A DNA stretch of 46,328 nt from the IMG/VR virus record IMGVR_UViG_3300031251_000039, positions 1 to 46,328 of that record. One strand, written 5' to 3'. Positions within the stretch are counted from its first letter, which is position 1. Each line of letters opens with the position of its first letter. The stretch is from a virus. The notes under the pieces are model-generated. The model saw nothing but the letters and a program-made list of their open reading frames with translations, had not been told where the DNA came from and made no database searches. Positions 2,509 through 38,581 of the stretch are shown here, piece after piece. A program made the translations under genes and the position numbers.

Positions 2509-3474
2509 TCACGGACCCGCAACGGCCGCCGCCGAAGTCACCGCCAGCGACACGCCCGAGATCCGCAGCGCCGCGTTGCCGTGCTTGGTCTCACTGGCCC
2601 GCAGCGCTTGGGGAACAATGATCCCGTTCGCGAAACTAAACTTGAGATGCGCCGCCGTGGCATCGGCGATATAGGTACCGCCTGGCACACGCCGCCGCAG
2701 AAACGCGCTGAACTGAGTGATCTGGGCGACGCCTTCCAGCGATGCGATCTGATCGAAGTCCTCGACCTGAATCTCGATCACCGGATTGATCTCTTCCAGG
2801 AAGATGTCACTGGGATACGGACACCCGTCATAATGCTGCTTCTCGCTGTACTGACAGCCGAAGTTCACACTAAAGCCGACCTGTCGCGCAATGCGAGTCC
2901 CGTTGATCCAGACCGGACCGCCGCCCCACATCGCCGTAAACGCCTGAGCCGGCAGCGTCTGACCGACCAGGGCTTCAAACGGAGGCACCAGCCCGTCACC
3001 CGAAAGGTAATGAATCGCACCGCTGGCCGTCACCGCACCGGCCCGAGGAGCCGTCACCGATTGCGGAATCAACTGCGCTGGCGAAATAATACTTCCCGCA
3101 TTGTCGGCCGCAGGAGTGCCCCGGATCACGACATGATGCGCCCCGCTTTGAAAAGTTCCGCCGGACGCACGCTTCTGGTAAGGGATCACCAGCGTCGACC
3201 CGTCCGCGACCCTGGCCCCGGTCGGCGTGAACAGCGTCAAGAACGTCTCGATATCGACTGTCGTCAATTGCCCTTCGGGCGCCGCGTCGGAAATGTACTG
3301 CGCGGCGTTGGCGACATCGCTGATCGTTTCGAGCGCGACGTACGGGCTGCCGGATTCGCGACCCATGATAAAGTTGTAATGCGGATCGAAATCGCTCTGA
3401 GTGATCTGCCGCAGGTAAATCGGATTGCTGCTTCCATCGACGCCGATCTGGGCGTCATAGACTACGTCTGGCAT
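2509..3474 (-). CDS. Major tail (tube) protein, probable
   Basis: 321 residues starting MPDVVYDAQIG. The protein is rich in G, T, S and beta-type stretches with few charges, as expected of a tube protein. It lies between the head-tail connector genes and the tail chaperone, which is the tube position. I chose the ATG at 3474 over the in-frame ATG at 3483: the Shine-Dalgarno GAAGGGA sits 9 bases from 3474 but abuts 3483, and the two sister leaders use the same spacing. It carries the special SD-in-loop leader shared with the capsid genes, which supports a highly made virion protein. No family motif was recognised directly. Confidence 0.65.
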   Translation of the reverse strand: MPDVVYDAQIGVDGSSNPIYLRQITQSDFDPHYNFIMGRESGSPYVALETISDVANAAQYISDAAPEGQLTTVDIETFLTLFTPTGARVADGSTLVIPYQKRASGGTFQSGAHHVVIRGTPAADNAGSIISPAQLIPQSVTAPRAGAVTASGAIHYLSGDGLVPPFEALVGQTLPAQAFTAMWGGGPVWINGTRIARQVGFSVNFGCQYSEKQHYDGCPYPSDIFLEEINPVIEIQVEDFDQIASLEGVAQITQFSAFLRRRVPGGTYIADATAAHLKFSFANGIIVPQALRASETKHGNAALRISGVSLAVTSAAAVAGP

Positions 3475-3475
3475 T

Positions 3476-3529
3476 TGGACCATCCCTTCGTTGGTCCATC
3501 GCGTTTGAATCTTGTACGGGTGGCCACCC
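3476..3529 (-). promoter_or_regulatory. Shared structural-gene leader, copy 1 (tail tube)
   Basis: Read on the minus strand: 12-bp palindrome GGGTGGCCACCC (3518-3529), 13 bases, CGCGATGGA, then stem TGGACC/GGTCCA (3493-3498 with 3476-3481) with loop AACGAAGGGAT holding the Shine-Dalgarno. Two ANGGA motifs (ATGGA and AGGGA) are 9 bases apart, CsrA-site-like. The start codon follows the stem by one base. Confidence 0.7.
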
Positions 3530-3538
3530 GCTTACCTC

Positions 3539-4054
3539 TTACCGGAACTGCTTCAAGACTTTGGTTTGATGAGCTGGATCAAAGACCGCCGCTTGATACT
3601 GCAACCGCATCCGTTCGCGTTGCTGGTCGATTTCGTCATCGCTGACGAATTCCATTTCTTTGCGTCGCTGCTCGGTCAACGGACGGCGGATCATTTTTCC
3701 AGCGTTCGGACCGAACTTGATCATGGTCTCCAGGGGCGCCTTGGCTTCGAGCTTGCCGAAATCCTGAGTCTTCCGGATCACGCTTTCCGTCAAGACCGCT
3801 CGCCGAAGCGCTCCCGTCCAGACGTTCGGCCGATCGTGACCCACTTTTCGGCGTTTGATCCTGCGCCAACGTGCGGACCGGTTCGCGAAGATTCCCGGAT
3901 ACCGCCGGAACGCTTCCGTCATGAAGTGAAACGGCAGGTAAATATCCCGGATGTACTTCATCGTCTCTTCGTGGCATTCCTTCATGACCTTGCCGTGTTC
4001 ACGCTCATGAAACAGCCTGGCCGTCAGCACGCCGCCGATGATCGTCGTCGTCAT
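3539..4054 (-). CDS. Neck/tail-completion protein, HK97 gp10-like (tentative)
   Basis: 171 residues from MTTTIIGG; the ATG overlaps the previous stop as ATGA, so longer upstream starts are discarded. A short stretch GHDRPNVWTGALRRAVL resembles the V-x-TG-x-L-R segment of HK97 gp10-type and phage virion-morphogenesis proteins, which sit at the tail end of the neck. The rest is basic and helical. It is fourth in a run of small overlapping connector-type genes between capsid and tail tube. Role is inferred from position plus this weak motif. Confidence 0.5.
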   Translation of the reverse strand: MTTTIIGGVLTARLFHEREHGKVMKECHEETMKYIRDIYLPFHFMTEAFRRYPGIFANRSARWRRIKRRKVGHDRPNVWTGALRRAVLTESVIRKTQDFGKLEAKAPLETMIKFGPNAGKMIRRPLTEQRRKEMEFVSDDEIDQQRERMRLQYQAAVFDPAHQTKVLKQFR

Positions 4055-4569
4055 GGCATCCCCTCCCGGCCCAGACACCAGGTCATTTCCAGCAGGTTCA
4101 CGCCGTTTTCCGTTACCGGATCGACTGCCCCGCAAGAATGCTCCTCGATCCGCTGGAATTCGATGTAGCCTGGCGACGCTGCGAGTGCTGAGAATTCATC
4201 CGTCATCGAGCCAAACAGGTTGTTCAAGTGCTGCCTGTGATCCGCCGCCGTAAACGGTCCGGATATGTCGTACCATGCCGCCAGGTCGTCGTCCGTGAAT
4301 TCATGCAACTGCACGAAAATCAGCATGTCGCCATGCGCTAGGAATGTTTCCATGCCGCTTCTGACCGCGACCGCGCCGCTGTGATGCCGCACGATCGCCC
4401 GAGGAAACGGCTGAGTACTATCATCCAGCGCCAAATCGATATAGATGCTCTGTAATGCCTGTTGCTCCGTGGTGGCGCCGACCAGCTTACGGAACGTGGC
4501 CGATCCGCTGACGGTATTCGCCAGGTTGACCAGCCGCATCGATCGAGTTCCCTCCACTGGCACGCTCAC
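4051..4569 (-). CDS. Head-tail connector / tail terminator-type protein (tentative)
   Basis: 172 residues, coupled to both neighbours by ATGA overlaps. Mixed alpha/beta composition, no transmembrane segment, one Cys-Gly pair near the C-terminus (EEHSCGAVD). No motif recognised. The slot between a head-closure-type protein and a gp10-like protein is where tail terminator and neck proteins are normally encoded. Confidence 0.45.
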   Translation of the reverse strand: MSVPVEGTRSMRLVNLANTVSGSATFRKLVGATTEQQALQSIYIDLALDDSTQPFPRAIVRHHSGAVAVRSGMETFLAHGDMLIFVQLHEFTDDDLAAWYDISGPFTAADHRQHLNNLFGSMTDEFSALAASPGYIEFQRIEEHSCGAVDPVTENGVNLLEMTWCLGREGMP

Positions 4570-4919
4570 AGAATATGACCCCTCGATACCGTCGTCTTGA
4601 CCTTGTCGTCACGCCGCAACGCCAGGATTCGCAGCTCGGCGTTGATCAGTGGTGAACGTTCGACCTGCCACCATTCACCGTTGACCTGCCATTGTTCGCC
4701 CCAGGCATAATCGACGGTGTTCACCACCGTCAGCGTCGCCGTCCGCATGGTCCGCTCACCGGTCGGATCGTACGACCGGTCCACACGCTCCTCAGTGAAC
4801 AGCGACGGAATCGCCGTCTGATCCTGGCTGCCATCGCTGGCGCCGTTAGGAGGGCGACGAGTCACGTCTGTTCCGTGCTGGTCATACAGCGTATTAAACG
4901 AATCCAGGACAAACGACAC
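4566..4919 (-). CDS. Small head-closure-type protein (tentative)
   Basis: 117 residues. The second half reads as a beta barrel with VNTVDYAWGEQWQVNGEWWQVERSP, the W-x-V-x-G-x-W-x-V pattern seen in small phage head-closure and joining proteins. It overlaps the next gene by ATGA. Family assignment is by pattern and position only. Confidence 0.45.
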   Translation of the reverse strand: MSFVLDSFNTLYDQHGTDVTRRPPNGASDGSQDQTAIPSLFTEERVDRSYDPTGERTMRTATLTVVNTVDYAWGEQWQVNGEWWQVERSPLINAELRILALRRDDKVKTTVSRGHIL

Positions 4920-4931
4920 ACCCGCCCCCGA

Positions 4932-5222
4932 TCACTCAGTTTTGACGGCCGGATCGACCACTGGCTTACAAAACAGCAGGTTGTCTTCGACCAGCCGAGT
5001 GATAAAGCGCGGAGTAAACGGCGCACCTGGCGGAAGAATGATCTGCGCCAGGACAGTCCCATCCTGAAAGTAGGTATCGCCCCAGGAGACGACCCCGTTC
5101 ACCACCACGTTGAAAACCGTTGGCTGATCAGGAGCCGCAGGAGCCGCCGCCGGATCACCAGCCGGAGCCTCGACCACAGGAGCGTCACCAGCCACAACCG
5201 GCGTTTCTTCTTTCTTAGCCAT
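4932..5222 (-). CDS. Small protein after major capsid gene, Ala/Pro-rich N-terminus
   Basis: 96 residues: MAKKEE, then a low-complexity A/P/D/V-rich stretch to about residue 33, then a compact beta-type segment (NVVVNGVVSWGDTYFQDGTVL). Not recognised. It is the first gene after the capsid terminator-like hairpin and starts the connector gene run. The SD is GAGGG about 8 bases upstream of the ATG. Confidence 0.5.
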   Translation of the reverse strand: MAKKEETPVVAGDAPVVEAPAGDPAAAPAAPDQPTVFNVVVNGVVSWGDTYFQDGTVLAQIILPPGAPFTPRFITRLVEDNLLFCKPVVDPAVKTE

Positions 5223-5264
5223 CGCGAAACCCTCACAAAAGAAACAGACTCAACCCCAGAAAAC

Positions 5265-5294
5265 GCGGTGCGGCAGATCGCTCCACCGCACCGC
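5265..5294 (-). terminator. Hairpin terminator after major capsid gene
   Basis: 9-bp stem GCGGTGCGG/CCGCACCGC with a 12-base loop, followed on the minus strand by GTTTTC. A second hairpin CCGCTGT/ACAGCGG (5299-5321) lies just before it. Placed between the capsid stop and the next gene, so it probably lowers transcription of downstream genes relative to capsid. Confidence 0.55.
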
Positions 5295-5342
5295 TTCCCG
5301 CTGTCACATCAAAACAGCGGACCCGTCAAGACTCACCCAGAC

Positions 5343-6383
5343 TCAGAGAATCGTGCCGTCCGTGACACCGGTCACCAGCACGCCCGCCCGGTAGAAAGTG
5401 CCGTCAGCCATCGGATCATCGAACGGTTTGACCGCCCAGTTCCAACGACCACGGATCACACCGCCGCGACGCTGTTCTTCGCGGTATTCTTCCATGATGA
5501 TCGCGCTTTCGCCCGAGCCATCATCGAGCCCCGGAATCTTGGCGTTCTGGGCTTGATACATGACCGTGCGGCCCACACAGACCGATGGCGAAGTCAGTTC
5601 CGTCTGCGAATCGGCGATCCGTCCGACCCACAGCATCGTGGGATCCCAGAAGCGGGAAAACGCGGGCGCCGTCCCGTCAGGGTTTGGATTCTTCCAGCCG
5701 TCACCGACCAGAATATTATCGATCTTGAAAATCGCCTTGAGCGCATCGATCGAAATGTTCTTCGGGTCATCGATCCCCGAATATTTCAAACGGTCAATCA
5801 ACTGCGAACACTGAAGCATCCAGTCCAGGGCGATCTGCGGAATGACCAGGGCATTCGCTTTCACGCCGTATTTGCGACACTGGTACTTGGCCTGAAAAAT
5901 CAAGCTGATCGGCGTCGCCGAACTGAGGTTACTGAAGGTCGTTCCCGCCGCGATCGTCTGGTTGCCGGTATAGGCACCCGTGTTAAACACCGCATTGGCA
6001 ACCGCTTGTTCATGCTCGGCCAGCAACAGACTCGTCACACGCTGAGCCGCAATCTGCTCAACCGGCAGAAAATCCCCATACATTTCGACTTCAGCGTCGT
6101 CAACGGCCGATTCGCGACCTTTTTCGACAGTCGAATAGGTGTCAGTCGTCCAGCCGCTTTCATCACGCTTGTAAGCACCGCGCGGAACGCGGGTGTTGTC
6201 TTCCACCGGCGTGAACGTGCTGGCGAGCGACAATCGGGTGAACGAACTGCTGGGCTTGGCCACGGCCGCCGCCGGCATGACCTTGAAACCGATGTAACTT
6301 TCTTCGTTGGCGATCTGATCCCAGTCATTTCGCCGCATCGACAGATCGTAACGCACAATCGCGTTACCGTTCCCGTTAAGCAT
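5343..6383 (-). CDS. Major capsid protein
   Basis: 346 residues, the normal size for a capsid protein without a delta domain. It follows a portal, protease/scaffold and decoration-protein series, the lambda gene order (gpE position). Features consistent with the role: DDAEVEMYGDFLPVEQIAAQRV (here residues only named in part), an AKYQCRKYG helix region, a VIPQIALDWML segment and a C-terminal domain ending in a Thr/Gly-rich strand. The leader has the special SD-in-loop hairpin, and a hairpin terminator follows. Assigned by position, size and context. Confidence 0.85.
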   Translation of the reverse strand: MLNGNGNAIVRYDLSMRRNDWDQIANEESYIGFKVMPAAAVAKPSSSFTRLSLASTFTPVEDNTRVPRGAYKRDESGWTTDTYSTVEKGRESAVDDAEVEMYGDFLPVEQIAAQRVTSLLLAEHEQAVANAVFNTGAYTGNQTIAAGTTFSNLSSATPISLIFQAKYQCRKYGVKANALVIPQIALDWMLQCSQLIDRLKYSGIDDPKNISIDALKAIFKIDNILVGDGWKNPNPDGTAPAFSRFWDPTMLWVGRIADSQTELTSPSVCVGRTVMYQAQNAKIPGLDDGSGESAIIMEEYREEQRRGGVIRGRWNWAVKPFDDPMADGTFYRAGVLVTGVTDGTIL

Positions 6384-6387
6384 TTTC

Positions 6388-6469
6388 GGAGTTCCTTTTT
6401 AGAAACTCCATCGCGCTGCTTGAATGAAACGCCCCCAAGGCGAAAGGAGATCCGGGTTTGGTGGCCACC
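6388..6469 (-). promoter_or_regulatory. Shared structural-gene leader, copy 2 (major capsid)
   Basis: Minus strand: palindrome GGTGGCCACC (6460-6469), 44 bases, CGCGATGGA, then stem GGAGTT/AACTCC (6404-6409 with 6388-6393) with a loop ending in AAAAAGG; the Shine-Dalgarno AAGGA straddles loop and stem. The ANGGA motifs are ATGGA and AAGGA, 11 bases apart. ATG follows 4 bases after the stem. Confidence 0.7.
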
Positions 6470-6509
6470 TCCCCCGGCTCCGCGATGGAGACACATAAAA
6501 ATCGTGTCC

Positions 6510-6525
6510 CGCCTGAAATCAGGCG
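6510..6525 (-). terminator. Small hairpin at end of decoration gene
   Basis: CGCCTG/CAGGCG stem with an ATTT loop, overlapping the stop codon region. The only T-tract (ATTTTTA) lies about 8 bases after it on the minus strand, so it is a weak terminator or an mRNA 3'-end stabiliser. Confidence 0.35.
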
Positions 6526-6875
6526 AGTTGTACTTCTGCGTTCGCGTTCGCCACGACACCGGGCGCCCAGTTGGTCCCGACCGTCACAGCGCCGCCAGCG
6601 CTCGATACGCTGACCATGCCGTTTGCCGCCCCATAACAGGTCACACCCACGCCGATCGTGTCGGCCGCAGTGATCGTCACCCCGTCTTCGGTCTTGGGCG
6701 AAATCACCGCGACGTAATAAACGCCGTTGACCAGATAGGGCACACCATCGGTAATCCCAATGGCGTTATCCGTGACGCCCGCCAGAACCAATTGACCGCC
6801 GGACCATTTGACACGCCGGTTATTCAGCACCGTGCTGGCACATGGCAGCGTCCGGCTTCCCTTCGTCTTCCTCAT
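6519..6875 (-). CDS. Capsid decoration protein (head stabiliser-like)
   Basis: 118 residues, almost entirely beta-type, with ITDGVPYLVNGVYYVAVI and repeated small residues. It resembles the DUF2190/gpD class of small proteins that cement the capsid surface. It lies between protease/scaffold and major capsid, the gpD position in lambda. It has its own copy of the SD-in-loop leader, which fits a protein needed in capsid-like copy number. Family call is from size, fold-type composition and position. Confidence 0.68.
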   Translation of the reverse strand: MRKTKGSRTLPCASTVLNNRRVKWSGGQLVLAGVTDNAIGITDGVPYLVNGVYYVAVISPKTEDGVTITAADTIGVGVTCYGAANGMVSVSSAGGAVTVGTNWAPGVVANANAEVQLA

Positions 6876-6933
6876 TGGATCAATCCTTCACTTGATCCAT
6901 CGCGTTGTTTTGTGTTGTTCAGGGTGGCCACCC
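6876..6933 (-). promoter_or_regulatory. Shared structural-gene leader, copy 3 (decoration protein)
   Basis: Minus strand: palindrome GGGTGGCCACCC (6922-6933), 17 bases, CGCGATGGA, then 8-bp stem TGGATCAA/TTGATCCA (6892-6899 with 6876-6883) with loop GTGAAGGA, so the Shine-Dalgarno is entirely in the loop. ANGGA motifs ATGGA and AAGGA are 9 bases apart. The ATG follows the stem directly, with its A one base from it. Confidence 0.72.
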
Positions 6934-6971
6934 GACAGTCAAAGCACCAAGACACTCAAGCACCGACGATT

Positions 6972-7454
6972 TCAGGCATACTTTTCAGCAAGCTGCCGTC
7001 GCGATTTTCCGCTGGGGTTGGTCGCAGCCAGAAACCTCTGATGCAGCTCGGGATTTTTCCGGGCTGCGACTTTCACGGCTGCAAACCGACTCATTCCGCC
7101 TTTCATCAACGTGCTGACCGCTTCGTCGAATTGCTCAACGGCGTTGCCCGTGTCTTCGCTTTCGGATTCGCTCGTCCCGGACTTTCCCTTGGGGGTGCCC
7201 AACGGTTCGGTTCCGGGCTTGGTGCCGATCGCGCCGCCGGCCGCTTTCAGACCGTCGATTTCCTTGTCCTTGGCCTGAAGCCGACTGTTCATCTCGGCCA
7301 GCCAGTTCGATTGAGCCTGGGCCAGGGTGACCTTGCCCTTGAGCTGTTTCATCAAGAACGAATCGTCAGCCCCCACCAGGTGCGCCGTCAGCTCGTCCAA
7401 GGTTGCCGCGACAGAACCAGTCAGCGTCCCGGCAGGATTTTCAGTACCACTCAT
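6972..7454 (-). CDS. Nested in-frame scaffolding protein (Nu3-like)
   Basis: An internal ATG (MSGTENPAGTL) is in frame with the protease and is preceded by AAAGGGG with 7 bases spacing, a much better ribosome binding site than expected by chance inside a gene. The product of 160 residues is the scaffold-type C-terminal domain alone. Lambda gpC/Nu3 and related phages make the scaffold this way. The protein fills the assembling prohead and is then degraded. Confidence 0.68.
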   Translation of the reverse strand: MSGTENPAGTLTGSVAATLDELTAHLVGADDSFLMKQLKGKVTLAQAQSNWLAEMNSRLQAKDKEIDGLKAAGGAIGTKPGTEPLGTPKGKSGTSESESEDTGNAVEQFDEAVSTLMKGGMSRFAAVKVAARKNPELHQRFLAATNPSGKSRRQLAEKYA

Positions 7455-8405
7455 CTTCGCCCCTTTCTTTGGTTGCGAATTTCCCTTTGCGCCGGCACGT
7501 TCCGATAACTGCCGCATCGTCTCGTCAAAACTCTGCACCGCGTCGACCAGACCCAGGTCTTTCGCCGCCGCGCCCACATGCACCCGACCGTCAGCGATCT
7601 TGCTGACCGCTTCGGCCGACATCTTCCGGCCGCTCGCCACGCCCGCAATAAATTGCGTGTTCAGCTGATCGACCATCGCTTGCCAGTTGGCAAGCTGTTC
7701 ATCGGTGATCTTGGTCCCAGGAGTTCCCGCACCCTTGAAGTCACCGGCCTTGATCACATGGACCTTGATTTTCATGTCTTCGGCCATTCCCGAAGAATCA
7801 CGCACCGCCATAAACGTGCCGATCGATCCCACCAGCGCCGAGGGTCCACATGCCACGAATCCCGCCTGGCTGGCACACCAATACGCCGCACTGGCGCACA
7901 GGTCTTCGCAGTAGGCTGCGGTCGGTTTCTCGCTATTCGCCGCCGCGATCTCTGCCGCCAAATCCTGAGTGCCCGCCACGGTCCCGCCGGGCGAATCAAA
8001 CACCATGCAGATCGCCTTGACCGAGCTATCCCGGACCGCTGCCCGGATCGCCTGACGCAGCTCGACCGTCGAGGCACTGGTCGAAAAGCTCGAAGTGGCT
8101 TTCATCAGCGTTCCGTCTGCCCGGATCACCGCAATCCCGTCATCGGCCATCTGGTACCCGCCGCGTCCGCTGTCCGATTCGCTGATCCGACTGACGGGCT
8201 CGTCCTTCTCCTTGGCGATCAGCTCCAGCTTCGCAATGTTCACCTGCGCTTCGGGGATCAACATTCGCTGCGCGACGTGATCCCGTAGGTCCATTTCGCT
8301 GACCAGCGAAAACAAACCCGCAAACGCCGGTTCGTGCATCGACCACAGACCGAAATAGTCATCCAGTCGCTGGTAAGCTGGCCGTAGTGCTTGAAATTCC
8401 ATCAC
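6972..8405 (-). CDS. S49 (SppA-type) head maturation protease fused to scaffold
   Basis: 477 residues. The N-terminal 300 form a ClpP/SppA-type serine protease: DSPGGTVAG at 137-145, EDLCASAAYWCAS around 167 with the likely nucleophile Ser172, VGSIGTFMA at 192-200, and AGDFKGAG with the likely partner Lys224. Such proteases cut scaffold and capsid proteins inside the prohead. From about residue 318 the sequence turns into a coiled-coil, charged scaffold-type domain (SRLQAKDKEIDGLKAAGG) with a Gly/Ser linker. This is the lambda gpC arrangement, with the scaffold also made from an internal start. Stop is 96 bases before the decoration gene. Confidence 0.88.
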   Translation of the reverse strand: MMEFQALRPAYQRLDDYFGLWSMHEPAFAGLFSLVSEMDLRDHVAQRMLIPEAQVNIAKLELIAKEKDEPVSRISESDSGRGGYQMADDGIAVIRADGTLMKATSSFSTSASTVELRQAIRAAVRDSSVKAICMVFDSPGGTVAGTQDLAAEIAAANSEKPTAAYCEDLCASAAYWCASQAGFVACGPSALVGSIGTFMAVRDSSGMAEDMKIKVHVIKAGDFKGAGTPGTKITDEQLANWQAMVDQLNTQFIAGVASGRKMSAEAVSKIADGRVHVGAAAKDLGLVDAVQSFDETMRQLSERAGAKGNSQPKKGAKMSGTENPAGTLTGSVAATLDELTAHLVGADDSFLMKQLKGKVTLAQAQSNWLAEMNSRLQAKDKEIDGLKAAGGAIGTKPGTEPLGTPKGKSGTSESESEDTGNAVEQFDEAVSTLMKGGMSRFAAVKVAARKNPELHQRFLAATNPSGKSRRQLAEKYA

Positions 8406-8410
8406 GCCCC

Positions 8411-10024
8411 CTATGCCGCCGATTTCTTGCCGGTACCGGATTTTCCGGTATCGCCAGGTTGCGGCTTGTCTTCACCCTGAGCCGTCAGACTCAGCGTCAC
8501 ACCCTGCGGCAACGCCGCGCCGATCAATTCGTGCCAGTCGACCTCGACGCCCAGGTCCGCCTGAATCTTCTTCGCCGCAGCGATCGCTGCCCGGATCTTG
8601 AAGTCGTGATCCTCGATCGTCTCGGTGACGATCCGGTTCCAATCCAGTTGGTTCTCGCCCAGAATCCTGCGCGGAGAACTCAGCAGACTCACGCCACGCA
8701 GCGCGTCGGCCTGCGCGTCTTTCAATGGCTCGATGTACGACCACCCCGGCGGATGCCAGAGATGGCTGAATACGTTCAACCCCTTGGCAGCCGCAGCCCG
8801 CAAACGTTCACCGCGCGGCGAGTTTTCCCGCAGCCATTCACGCACCTTCCAGCGATAAACCGGCCGATGCAGGTTCTCAATCAGCCACTGCTGCATCTCA
8901 CGCCAGCGCAACCGAGCCTGATCGATCGCACCACGCCAGCCCGAGAAATTCGTTTGCGTTGGATCCAGCATCATGACCTGAAGCGGCAAATCGAGGTTCA
9001 CCGCGATGAATGCCAGCACCAGCATCGAATGACTGATAAAGTCGCTGCCGGCGACGTTCGGCGAAAACGCCTGAAGTTTCTCACCCGGATTCCCGGTGAC
9101 TTCCATGCCAGGATAAATCTGCTGAAGCAGCCTGACCGTGTTTTCGTTCGGCCTCAGCTCGACTTCGCCCATCGTGCCAGGTGGCTGCTGAGTCAGATCA
9201 CTCAGCGGCAGTTCCCGCATGAACGCAATACAGCTCTGCACCTGGCGTTTGACCAGCTCCGCGAACTGGATGTCATCATGCAGACCCGCCGCCTTGAACG
9301 TCGGCGCTAACACCGTCACGCCCCGCGTCATGCTGAACCTGCGCCGCATGACACCGTGTAAGACCTGCGCGTTGCCGTTTTTGTCATAAAACGGATATGG
9401 CTGAATCCCGCTGACGAGATTCAATTGCTGCATCGGCTGAATATTTTCCTTGGTCAGCCAGGCTTCCAATGGCTGCCCGGCATCGTTTTTCAGGATCCCG
9501 AAGACCACATTCCGCGTCGTATTTGTTGGACGTCGGCAACGGTGACCTTCAATCGTGTCGATCGATCCCTGATTGGTCAGGACGTTGAACATGTCGCCGT
9601 CAACAAAAGTCTGCCGCAGAGTCAGCCGCTGGATGTCTTTCCAGCTACAGACCTGGCCGAAGTGGCACGACCGTTTTTCTTCGCCCCACTCGGCCCAGCT
9701 ATCCAACAGCAACTTGTCAACGTCCGTGTCGCCGGTTTGCGGATCGACCGGAAAACCCTCTTGGACAACGTTGGTCACCAGCCGGTTGATCGCCTGGCCG
9801 ACCACCAGATCGTTGCGATCGACATCCCGAGCCAGTTCCATGAAATGCAGGTACTGGAACTCAAACCGAATATGCCAGTCGGCACTGGCACCCATCGGAG
9901 CCAGCCCGGTCCGCTGCCGATTCAGCGCGTCGGTTTTCGTGGCGATGTAATCGCTACGCAGACCGTCGAACAACTCGGCCAAAGACGGATTGAGATCCAA
10001 GTTCGCACGTCGGCGACCCATCAA
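8411..10024 (-). CDS. Portal protein, lambda gpB family
   Basis: 537 residues, the usual size for this family. The portal forms the dodecameric ring at the capsid vertex through which DNA enters and leaves. Family-like features: RDVDRNDLVVGQAINRLVTNVVQEGF near the N-terminus (given in part), a conserved-looking TLRQTFVDGDMFNVL, and a C-terminal half with MMLDPTQTNFSGWRGAID and RWREMQQWLIE, very like the SYSSaRaa helix region of lambda-type portals. Lies directly before the protease gene. Begins ATGATG, overlapping the preceding stop by ATGA. Confidence 0.9.
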   Translation of the reverse strand: MMGRRRANLDLNPSLAELFDGLRSDYIATKTDALNRQRTGLAPMGASADWHIRFEFQYLHFMELARDVDRNDLVVGQAINRLVTNVVQEGFPVDPQTGDTDVDKLLLDSWAEWGEEKRSCHFGQVCSWKDIQRLTLRQTFVDGDMFNVLTNQGSIDTIEGHRCRRPTNTTRNVVFGILKNDAGQPLEAWLTKENIQPMQQLNLVSGIQPYPFYDKNGNAQVLHGVMRRRFSMTRGVTVLAPTFKAAGLHDDIQFAELVKRQVQSCIAFMRELPLSDLTQQPPGTMGEVELRPNENTVRLLQQIYPGMEVTGNPGEKLQAFSPNVAGSDFISHSMLVLAFIAVNLDLPLQVMMLDPTQTNFSGWRGAIDQARLRWREMQQWLIENLHRPVYRWKVREWLRENSPRGERLRAAAAKGLNVFSHLWHPPGWSYIEPLKDAQADALRGVSLLSSPRRILGENQLDWNRIVTETIEDHDFKIRAAIAAAKKIQADLGVEVDWHELIGAALPQGVTLSLTAQGEDKPQPGDTGKSGTGKKSAA

Positions 10025-10371
10025 TGCACCTCTGCATTCTGCGGAGGCTGCTCAGGAATGTACTCGTTGCGCATCCGGTTGAAGCCAAACTGACGCGGCA
10101 CCTGCGCCGTCGCAATCAGGGCATCCACCGATCGCGTCACATTCGCAGCCAGCCAGCGCTCAGCCTGATTCAAGGCTTGATTGACCGATGGCAGATCCCA
10201 TCCGGTTTCATACCGCACCAGACCACCCGCAGCACTGGCGCTTGAACTCGGCGTAACAAGCCGCAGCGCCTCACACGCCTCGATAAACGCAAGCGCCTTG
10301 GCACCGGTCGGATCGCTTCGGTATCCGAGGTTTGCCTCTGCCTGATCAATATAATCCTGCCGTGTTGCCAT
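10021..10371 (-). CDS. Small protein before portal (gpW-like position)
   Basis: 116 residues, helical, starting MATRQDYIDQAEANLGY; overlaps the portal start by ATGA. The first part contains an Ala-rich helix followed by a second helix around QALNQAERWLAAN. In lambda the small gpW gene sits directly before the portal, but this protein is longer and no gpW motif is certain. Preceded by an AT-rich palindrome that may be a promoter. Confidence 0.5.
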   Translation of the reverse strand: MATRQDYIDQAEANLGYRSDPTGAKALAFIEACEALRLVTPSSSASAAGGLVRYETGWDLPSVNQALNQAERWLAANVTRSVDALIATAQVPRQFGFNRMRNEYIPEQPPQNAEVH

Positions 10372-13365: not shown

Positions 13366-13852
13366 CCGCGCCCTTTCCTTGAACTTTTCCAGCGATCAGC
13401 ATCATCAGGTACCGGATCAGATCATGCGGTCCGTCGACGTGCAGCACTCGTCCGCCCCACACATAGGTCGCATGCTTCGCCCGCAGACCCAGCAGCAACC
13501 GCTTGAACGTCAAGCCCGCTTCGCCCGTCAGGTCGCAATCCAGACGCGACGAAACATATCCATGTACTTTTGGGTCAATCTCGTCCAGACAAACCGGCAA
13601 ATTCAGGAGTACTTCCCGAATCGTCTGTTCGCTGAGCAGTTCACGGACCGCCTGTTTCGGCACGTATTCCTGAATCGGTCCCGCCGGAAGTTCCGGAGTA
13701 CTTTCTTCCGGTACCGGCGCAGCGATCACCGCGTCATCCAGATTCTCGGTCTCGTTCTCCTGCTGGGCCAGCGCCAGGGCAGGATCAATAAAATCGTCCG
13801 CCGGATCGATCTCGGTATTGACTTGCGTTCCCGCTTGAGGTTTCTTCGCCAT
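13358..13852 (-). CDS. Unknown protein after large terminase
   Basis: 164 residues. Acidic, low-complexity N-terminal 60 residues, then a compact domain with PVCLDEIDPKVHGYVSSRLD and GLTFKRLLLGLRAKHATYV. Not recognised. Position between terminase and portal suggests a head-assembly or packaging accessory, which is inference. Confidence 0.45.
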   Translation of the reverse strand: MAKKPQAGTQVNTEIDPADDFIDPALALAQQENETENLDDAVIAAPVPEESTPELPAGPIQEYVPKQAVRELLSEQTIREVLLNLPVCLDEIDPKVHGYVSSRLDCDLTGEAGLTFKRLLLGLRAKHATYVWGGRVLHVDGPHDLIRYLMMLIAGKVQGKGADE

Positions 13853-37800: not shown

Positions 37801-38004
37801 TCACTGTTCAACGGTCTGTTCCGCTTCACACAGCGCCTGCAATTCCGCAGTGATTGCTTCACGCACTTCCCAGCGATGAATCGCGATGTCACCAGGTGCG
37901 TCGATCCCGATCCGGACCGTGTTCGGACCAATGCGGACAACCTTGATCACGATCGAATCACCGATACAAATCTTTTCCCCAGGCTTCCGAGACAGAACGA
38001 GCAT
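37801..38004 (-). CDS. csrA: Carbon storage regulator CsrA (RNA-binding)
   Basis: 67 residues from MLVLSRKPGEKICIG, with the CsrA hallmarks: N-terminal MLVLSRKPGE strand, IVIKVVRIGPNTVRIGIDAP core, and the C-terminal RNA-contact segment IHRWEVREAI. CsrA dimers bind ANGGA sites in mRNA hairpin loops and usually block ribosome binding. The ATG at 38004 is preceded by AAGGAGG; the start at 38046 used by a longer reading is discarded. In the leader, ACAAGGAGGT matches the published CsrA SELEX core ACARGGAUGU at 9 of 10 positions, and it sits in a GAC/GTC mini-hairpin. It shares the phage with leaders containing paired ANGGA motifs. Confidence 0.93.
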   Translation of the reverse strand: MLVLSRKPGEKICIGDSIVIKVVRIGPNTVRIGIDAPGDIAIHRWEVREAITAELQALCEAEQTVEQ

Positions 38005-38508: not shown

Positions 38509-38581
38509 TAGCGGATGAGGGATTCGAACCCCCGACCTCCAGGCCATGAACCTGGCGAGCTGACCACTGCTCTAATCCGCG
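38509..38581 (-). tRNA. tRNA-Met(CAT), initiator-like
   Basis: 73 nt, foldable by eye. Acceptor: positions 2-7 GCGGAT pair with ATCCGC, while position 1 (C) and 72 (T) do not pair, a mark of bacterial initiator tRNA. D stem GAGC/GCTC gives the A11-U24 pair also typical of initiators. Anticodon stem CCAGG/CCTGG with loop TTCATGG, anticodon CAT. T arm GGGGG-TTCGAAT-CCCTC with one G-U pair. Not all three GC pairs of the anticodon stem are present, and CCA is not encoded. Positions 37 and 38 are G, which is unusual. Confidence 0.85.

Follow-up and report, generated by a model that had tools for sequence, protein, structure and literature searches.

Three minus-strand genes of this virus, encoding the major capsid protein (MCP) and the presumed tail tube and head decoration proteins, share a leader in which the Shine-Dalgarno (SD) sequence falls within a hairpin, and the capsid copy appears to have been kept by compensatory changes; judged from sequence, this candidate is probably a real element of translation control. 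The reading that we prefer, at a probability of about 0.45, is that a cis-acting RNA element, an SD-sequestering hairpin that is closed by default and opened through a constant box, controls the translation of these virion genes. The features concerned are given below, numbered on the window, by which we mean the whole stretch of 46,328 nucleotides that was analyzed.

2509..3474, minus strand: presumed tail tube gene, 321 aa, assigned by gene order only
3476..3498, minus strand: tube SD hairpin, TGGACCA / loop ACGAAGGGA / TGGTCCA, SD in the loop, -11.2 kcal/mol
3495..3503, minus strand: constant box CGCGATGGA of the tube leader
3517..3530, minus strand: palindrome CGGGTGGCCACCCG of the tube leader, an RNA hairpin with a GGCC loop
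5343..6383, minus strand: major capsid protein gene, 346 aa, phrog_1005 at E=1.5e-33 and PDB 3bjq at E=7.8e-10 by profile
6388..6409, minus strand: MCP SD hairpin, GGAGTT / loop TCTAAAAAGG / AACTCC, -12.2 kcal/mol with the box U and the next G
6406..6415, minus strand: strand 3 of the MCP leader, CGCGATGGAG, the constant box and 3′ arm of the long helix P1
6452..6477, minus strand: helix P2 of the MCP leader, CCGGG/CCCGG around GGTGGCCACC (6460-6469), a GGCC-loop hairpin
6481..6490, minus strand: strand 1 of the MCP leader, CTCCATCGCG, the 5′ arm of P1
6519..6875, minus strand: presumed head decoration protein gene, 118 aa, weak phrog_122 match at E=0.07, between the protease and MCP genes
6876..6899, minus strand: decoration SD hairpin, TGGATCAA / loop GTGAAGGA / TTGATCCA, SD in the loop, -10.3 kcal/mol
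6896..6904, minus strand: constant box CGCGATGGA of the decoration leader
6923..6932, minus strand: palindrome GGTGGCCACC of the decoration leader
37801..38004, minus strand: phage-encoded CsrA gene, PF02599 at E=3e-23, a candidate trans-acting factor

Each of the three leaders (start codons at 3474, 6383 and 6875) carries GGTGGCCACC, CGCGATGGA and an SD hairpin of 6-10 bp, in the minus-strand places where the earlier note had put these motifs. A sequence scan of the window located the box at 3495-3503, 6407-6415 and 6896-6904 on the minus strand, with one inverted copy at 6481-6489 (plus strand), and three matches to the palindrome without mismatch (3519-3528, 6460-6469 and 6923-6932), the distance from palindrome to box being 15, 18 or 44 nt among the leaders. 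The stems are unlike one another (TGGACCA/TGGTCCA, TGGATCAA/TTGATCCA and GGAGTT/AACTCC) and, as the note had claimed, all of them pair. Its placing of the SD in or at the edge of the loop is right for the tube leader (7-bp stem, 9-nt loop) and the decoration leader (8-bp stem, 8-nt loop), whose loops contain the SD, and wrong for the capsid leader, where RNAfold extends the 6-bp stem to GGAGUUUCU[AAAA]AGGAACUCC, so that the SD is predicted to be paired. Hairpin stability by RNAfold is -10.3 to -12.2 kcal/mol across the three, and all of them have the T4-type arrangement of an SD or start codon within a stable hairpin. The linear distance from SD to ATG is 8-10 nt, so that the 3′ arm of the stem fills the initiation footprint and must open for initiation.

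Such hairpins arise infrequently by chance. When the last 45 nt were shuffled 20,000 times, an SD hairpin of at least 6 bp appeared 120 times for the tube, 207 times for the MCP and 75 times for the decoration leader (0.4-1.0%); with the box held fixed, the figures were 3.1%, 1.1% and 9.1%. The joint chance with the box fixed, 0.031 x 0.011 x 0.091 if the leaders are independent, is a rough guide only because they are probably paralogous, and the product is low: the three hairpins are unlikely to occur together by chance. That there is no fourth copy, as had been noted, was borne out, since every other match to a hairpin of at least 6 bp in the window scan was without the box; one of them, at the portal start (10021), was dismissed as a chance match that is not conserved in the related phage described below. 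An upstream ORF starting in the box (ATG/GTG GA...) was likewise rejected: no SD precedes it, and its frame and length differ between leaders (25, 25, 28 and 26 nt from its start to the gene start).

The protein names given earlier fared unevenly. Profile matches, including phrog_1005, support the identity of the MCP, while the decoration assignment is weak, being drawn mainly from position beside the phrog_122 match at E=0.07, and the tail tube is presumed from gene order, a family search of its protein having returned no match. Predicted structures of the decoration and tube proteins yielded no identity at mean pLDDT values of 42 and 29, and with such low confidence these two identities rest on position.

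A search with TerL led to one related phage, present as two contigs (L104/L098 and L105/L099) that are 99.99% identical to each other over 14 kb. Gene order is the same as in the window, and identity is 72% for TerL, 57% for the MCP, about 65% for the decoration protein and about 51% for the tube protein. The relative's MCP leader can be aligned over the entire element, which is larger than was first described: the earlier account missed an upstream arm, CTCCATCGCG at 6481-6490, that is a perfect 10-nt complement of the box 65 nt upstream of it. A complement of this length within 100 nt upstream was obtained in 17 of 100,000 shuffles of the window leader and 11 of 100,000 of the relative's. 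Nine nucleotides do not vary among the three window leaders, precisely those that match this arm, and the rest of the stems covaries. The resulting helix, P1, is a perfect 10 bp in both phages (CTCCACCGCG...CGCGGTGGAG in the relative versus CTCCATCGCG...CGCGATGGAG in the window) and differs between them at two positions only, which are pairing partners (U-A to C-G). In the GGCC-loop hairpin (P3), two substitutions are again partners (G-C to A-U), giving GATGGCCATC in the relative versus GGTGGCCACC. P2 (CCGGG/CCCGG) and the SD stem GGAGTT/AACTCC are identical in the two phages, and the loop of the SD hairpin differs. The two compensatory pairs of this two-sequence comparison are not significant alone (134 of 500 shuffles).

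When the four SD hairpins, three from the window and one from the relative, were aligned, four stem pairs had changed on both sides and 96.9% of cells paired, with C-G/U-A/G-C, C-G/U-A and A-U/U-A pairs at stem positions 4-6. This covariation score was reached by 0 of 500 shuffles, and slid controls collapsed; the sample is four leaders that share descent, from no more than two distinct phages. The proposal that pairing rather than sequence is conserved was upheld by this result and by the hairpin retained in the relative's MCP leader. A UGGCCA core with covarying flanks is also kept in all four leaders.

The same data bear on a reading at the DNA level, in which the palindrome is the operator of a late transcription activator and the leaders resemble one another through recent duplication, their hairpins having no role. 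As DNA, GGTGGCCACC is perfectly palindromic, and the substitutions that turn it into GATGGCCATC are symmetric, which would equally be expected if a dimer bound there. The paired changes among the three SD stems, the preservation of P1 through a compensatory change, the variable spacing of palindrome and box (15-44 nt) and a conservation that reaches the start codon all make this reading very unlikely.

The relative's decoration and tube genes have neither box nor SD hairpin upstream, and REP-like inverted repeats are found there instead. The notion of a leader general to the three virion genes fails on this point, homologs without the pairing or the box being one half of what the earlier note had named as evidence against it. 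The MCP leader is, on present alignments, the conserved element, and the decoration and tube versions look like reduced copies belonging to this phage only. The REP-like repeats fall into two families, GTAGCAGGCAGATTCCATCTGCC and GTAGCGG..GGCTTCCAGCCACCG, which occupy intergenic gaps of the relative (in L104, for example, 6651-6743, 10163-10261, 5651-5684, 9411-9444 and 13660-13691) and have no counterparts at equivalent positions of the window. The relative's decoration protein (L104 9446-10141, minus strand) is a tandem in-frame duplication of 231 aa with two copies of about 115 aa.

Wider searches yielded no further carriers. Pattern scans of 2.9 million viral contigs gave short-pattern matches without the leader context, the carriers being the relative's two contigs only; MCP and TerL protein scans of viral and genome contigs found one close relative, the others being at 22-28% identity; a covariance model of the MCP leader, run over 50 loci (0.9 Mb), matched at full strength only in the window and the relative; and blastn of the MCP leaders against phages and plasmids returned nothing or short, low-scoring pieces. 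In Rfam no family matched the leader, the tRNA alone reached the gathering score in the window, and sub-threshold matches within 3400-7100 lay off the leaders. The single tRNA-Met (CAT) gene, at 38509-38581 on the minus strand, is close to the integrase and may mark an attachment site.

Within the MCP leader, P1 and the SD hairpin both need the GGAG of strand 3, which doubles as the 5′ arm of the SD hairpin, and are therefore mutually exclusive. In the minimum free energy (MFE) fold of both phages' leaders, strand 1 (GUCUCCA) is paired to an intermediate strand and the SD hairpin is closed. The intermediate strand reads UGGGGGC in the window and GUG-U-GAGAC in the relative, two U-G to U-A differences that keep the pairing. 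The P1 fold, which is not the MFE fold, lies above it by 6.4 kcal/mol in the window and 2.5 kcal/mol in the relative, with P1 pair probabilities of about 0 and about 0.25, and the whole leader exceeds its shuffles in stability by a small margin only (z of -2.17 and -0.76 in the two phages). In these models the energetics would look like those of a two-state leader, which calculations on two sequences cannot establish. A terminator-like stem in the MCP leader (6442-6430) was discarded, being absent from the relative. Directly after the MCP gene, a strong terminator-like hairpin (5265-5294, minus strand) of 13 pairs followed by GTTTTC suggests that MCP transcription may stop there.

According to the cis-acting reading that we prefer, a hairpin of 6-10 bp (-10 to -12 kcal/mol) would enclose the SD together with everything from there to the start codon, and initiation would be blocked until it opens. 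The 5′ edge of this hairpin falls inside the box, CGCGRUGGA, of which CGCGA is unpaired and UGGA begins the stem; the box may serve as the opening handle. In the MCP leader the opener would act in cis, the arm CUCCAYCGCG pairing with CGCGRUGGAG and thereby removing the 5′ strand of the SD hairpin, so that the two mutually exclusive folds would form a toehold-switch or riboswitch-like arrangement. The decoration and tube copies, which consist of the GGCC hairpin, the box and the SD hairpin with no arm, would need an opener in trans, which could be the MCP arm, another RNA or a protein. The closed default, the switching and the coordination of the three genes are what we infer from these arrangements.

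The more ambitious version is a natural network of toehold switches: the identical CGCGAUGGA toehold would let the MCP 5′ arm open the decoration and tail tube SD hairpins as well as its own, whether in trans or at long range along one mRNA, and a single RNA strand would then fix the relative amounts of high-copy virion proteins. In trans, the arm could form 9 bp with the other leaders, in duplexes of -17 to -18 kcal/mol, and the same arm occurs 407 nt downstream of the decoration leader; none occurs within 400 nt of the tube leader, and cofolding of longer tube and decoration leaders with the MCP arm did not predict the trans pairing. We regard this version as unlikely.

Timing of the kind known from T4 would offer another explanation: long transcripts would fold the hairpin and go untranslated, and a late promoter in the 5′ arm (CGCGATGGA) would give short, hairpin-free transcripts. 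This mechanism is documented for T4 e and I-TevI, and hairpins that sequester the ribosome binding site (RBS) are documented for soc and 49 too (PMC3014915, PMC2988022); the constancy of the box and its position on the 5′ arm fit as well. The box, however, is G+C-rich, a scan of 3000-9000, which does not cover phage-specific promoters, detected no sigma-70-like promoter, and the compensatory change between the box and the arm about 65 nt upstream is left unexplained, and we think it improbable that the leaders work in this way. Slightly less probable still is an operator for a virion protein, by analogy with the coat proteins of RNA phages, which repress translation likewise. The capsid or another phage protein would bind the GGCC or SD hairpin and repress translation when abundant, which would suit both the presumed high-copy virion genes served and the retention of the UGGCCA core in four leaders; it would also require loss before two genes in the relative.

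The main rival to the cis-acting reading is control by CsrA, of which the phage's own version is otherwise a plausible trans factor. The GGA sequences to which CsrA binds lie in hairpin loops, often overlap the SD and have a second site nearby, and the protein activates ymdA by melting an SD-sequestering hairpin through one site inside the hairpin and one just upstream (PMC7652899). As targets of phage or host CsrA, the leaders would have AAGGA/AGGGA at the SD bridged to AUGGA in the box, with the SD occluded or the hairpin melted, as happens on the mRNA of ymdA in E. coli or of hag in B. subtilis. The window contains a csrA gene, and two ANGGA motifs, 12-14 nt apart, occur within 45 nt upstream in only these three of the 51 genes checked, a count that follows partly from the shared box. 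Conversely, ANGGA is not conserved: the corresponding sequences in the relative's MCP leader are GUGGA and GGGGA. The relative's contigs, themselves fragments, yielded no csrA. The stems here are of 6-10 bp, as compared with mostly four or fewer contiguous pairs in SELEX sites (PMC7652899), the GGA of the SD is predicted to be paired in the MCP leader, and P1 has no explanation in these terms. No comparable SD hairpin was seen in the leaders of the MCP genes from five other csrA-bearing phages (four of the MCPs are annotated and DC1 gp48 is presumed; in a sixth phage, PSTCR8lys, with no annotated MCP, two neighboring genes were inspected). Taken together, these points leave direct control of the leaders by CsrA doubtful.

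The csrA gene of the window has a strong SD, AAGGAGG, and is located near the integrase, in the other half of the genome from the virion genes. In Burkholderia phage DC1 (L236 29875-31353) and Pseudomonas phage F116 (L235 33363-33569), csrA or csrA-like genes are located within the head cluster; that of DC1 directly precedes gp48, a candidate for the true major capsid gene, although the record gives this name to a 139-aa gene. Like the CsrA/RsmA targets glgC, hag and ymdA (PMC7652899), the leaders present a GGA in an SD-overlapping hairpin loop with a second GGA near, in a genome with csrA; unlike them, they have stems too stable for a typical site, a motif that the relative does not keep, and the helix P1, which is not found in CsrA targets. 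Phage-encoded CsrAs have been described (PMC8450108, PMC10269572), and csrA is carried here too, as it is among the head genes of Burkholderia phages (CSP3, PMC10269572). The published proposals have these proteins act on CRISPR-Cas and physiology of the host rather than on virion mRNAs of the phage; the leader would give a phage-encoded CsrA a target in the phage itself, whereas the roles proposed so far concern the host.

How the output of capsid, decoration and tube proteins is set at the level of translation in dsDNA phages is little known outside T4, and a small leader that shows compensatory changes and recurs before several virion genes of a single genome would provide a compact example in which coordinated translation control could be tested. 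In narrow searches of open-access papers, we did not find described a box and palindromic hairpin with an alternative long helix at several virion genes. The earlier remark that no element of this form had been described is right insofar as Rfam has no match and too broad insofar as phage late genes are already known to carry RBS-sequestering hairpins (PMC3014915, PMC2988022). The leader is a good candidate for a structured leader with a testable mechanism, not for a new class of control.

The closest precedent, and the established one for this kind of control, is provided by the RBS-sequestering hairpins of the T4 late genes e, soc and 49. In these and in I-TevI, likewise genes of a dsDNA phage, the SD and/or the start codon lies in a hairpin, as here, and soc is an outer capsid gene (PMC3014915, PMC2988022). 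The T4 hairpins are gene-specific, whereas here a constant box and a palindrome recur at three genes, an alternative long-range helix is present besides in the MCP leader, and no sigma-70-like promoter was seen in the 5′ arm. A synthetic toehold switch holds its RBS in a loop and has a stem near the start codon in the OFF state, and it is opened by a strand that enters at an unpaired 5′ toehold (PMC7247568). The leaders share with it the unpaired 5′ toehold, the RBS in the loop (tube and decoration), the stem beside the start codon and a complementary strand potentially able to open it (PMC7247568); they differ in being natural, in having the start codon after the stem and a toehold of only 5 nt, and in the MCP trigger lying in cis, the opening itself being one that we infer. 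The leader described here is possibly a natural counterpart of that synthetic device.
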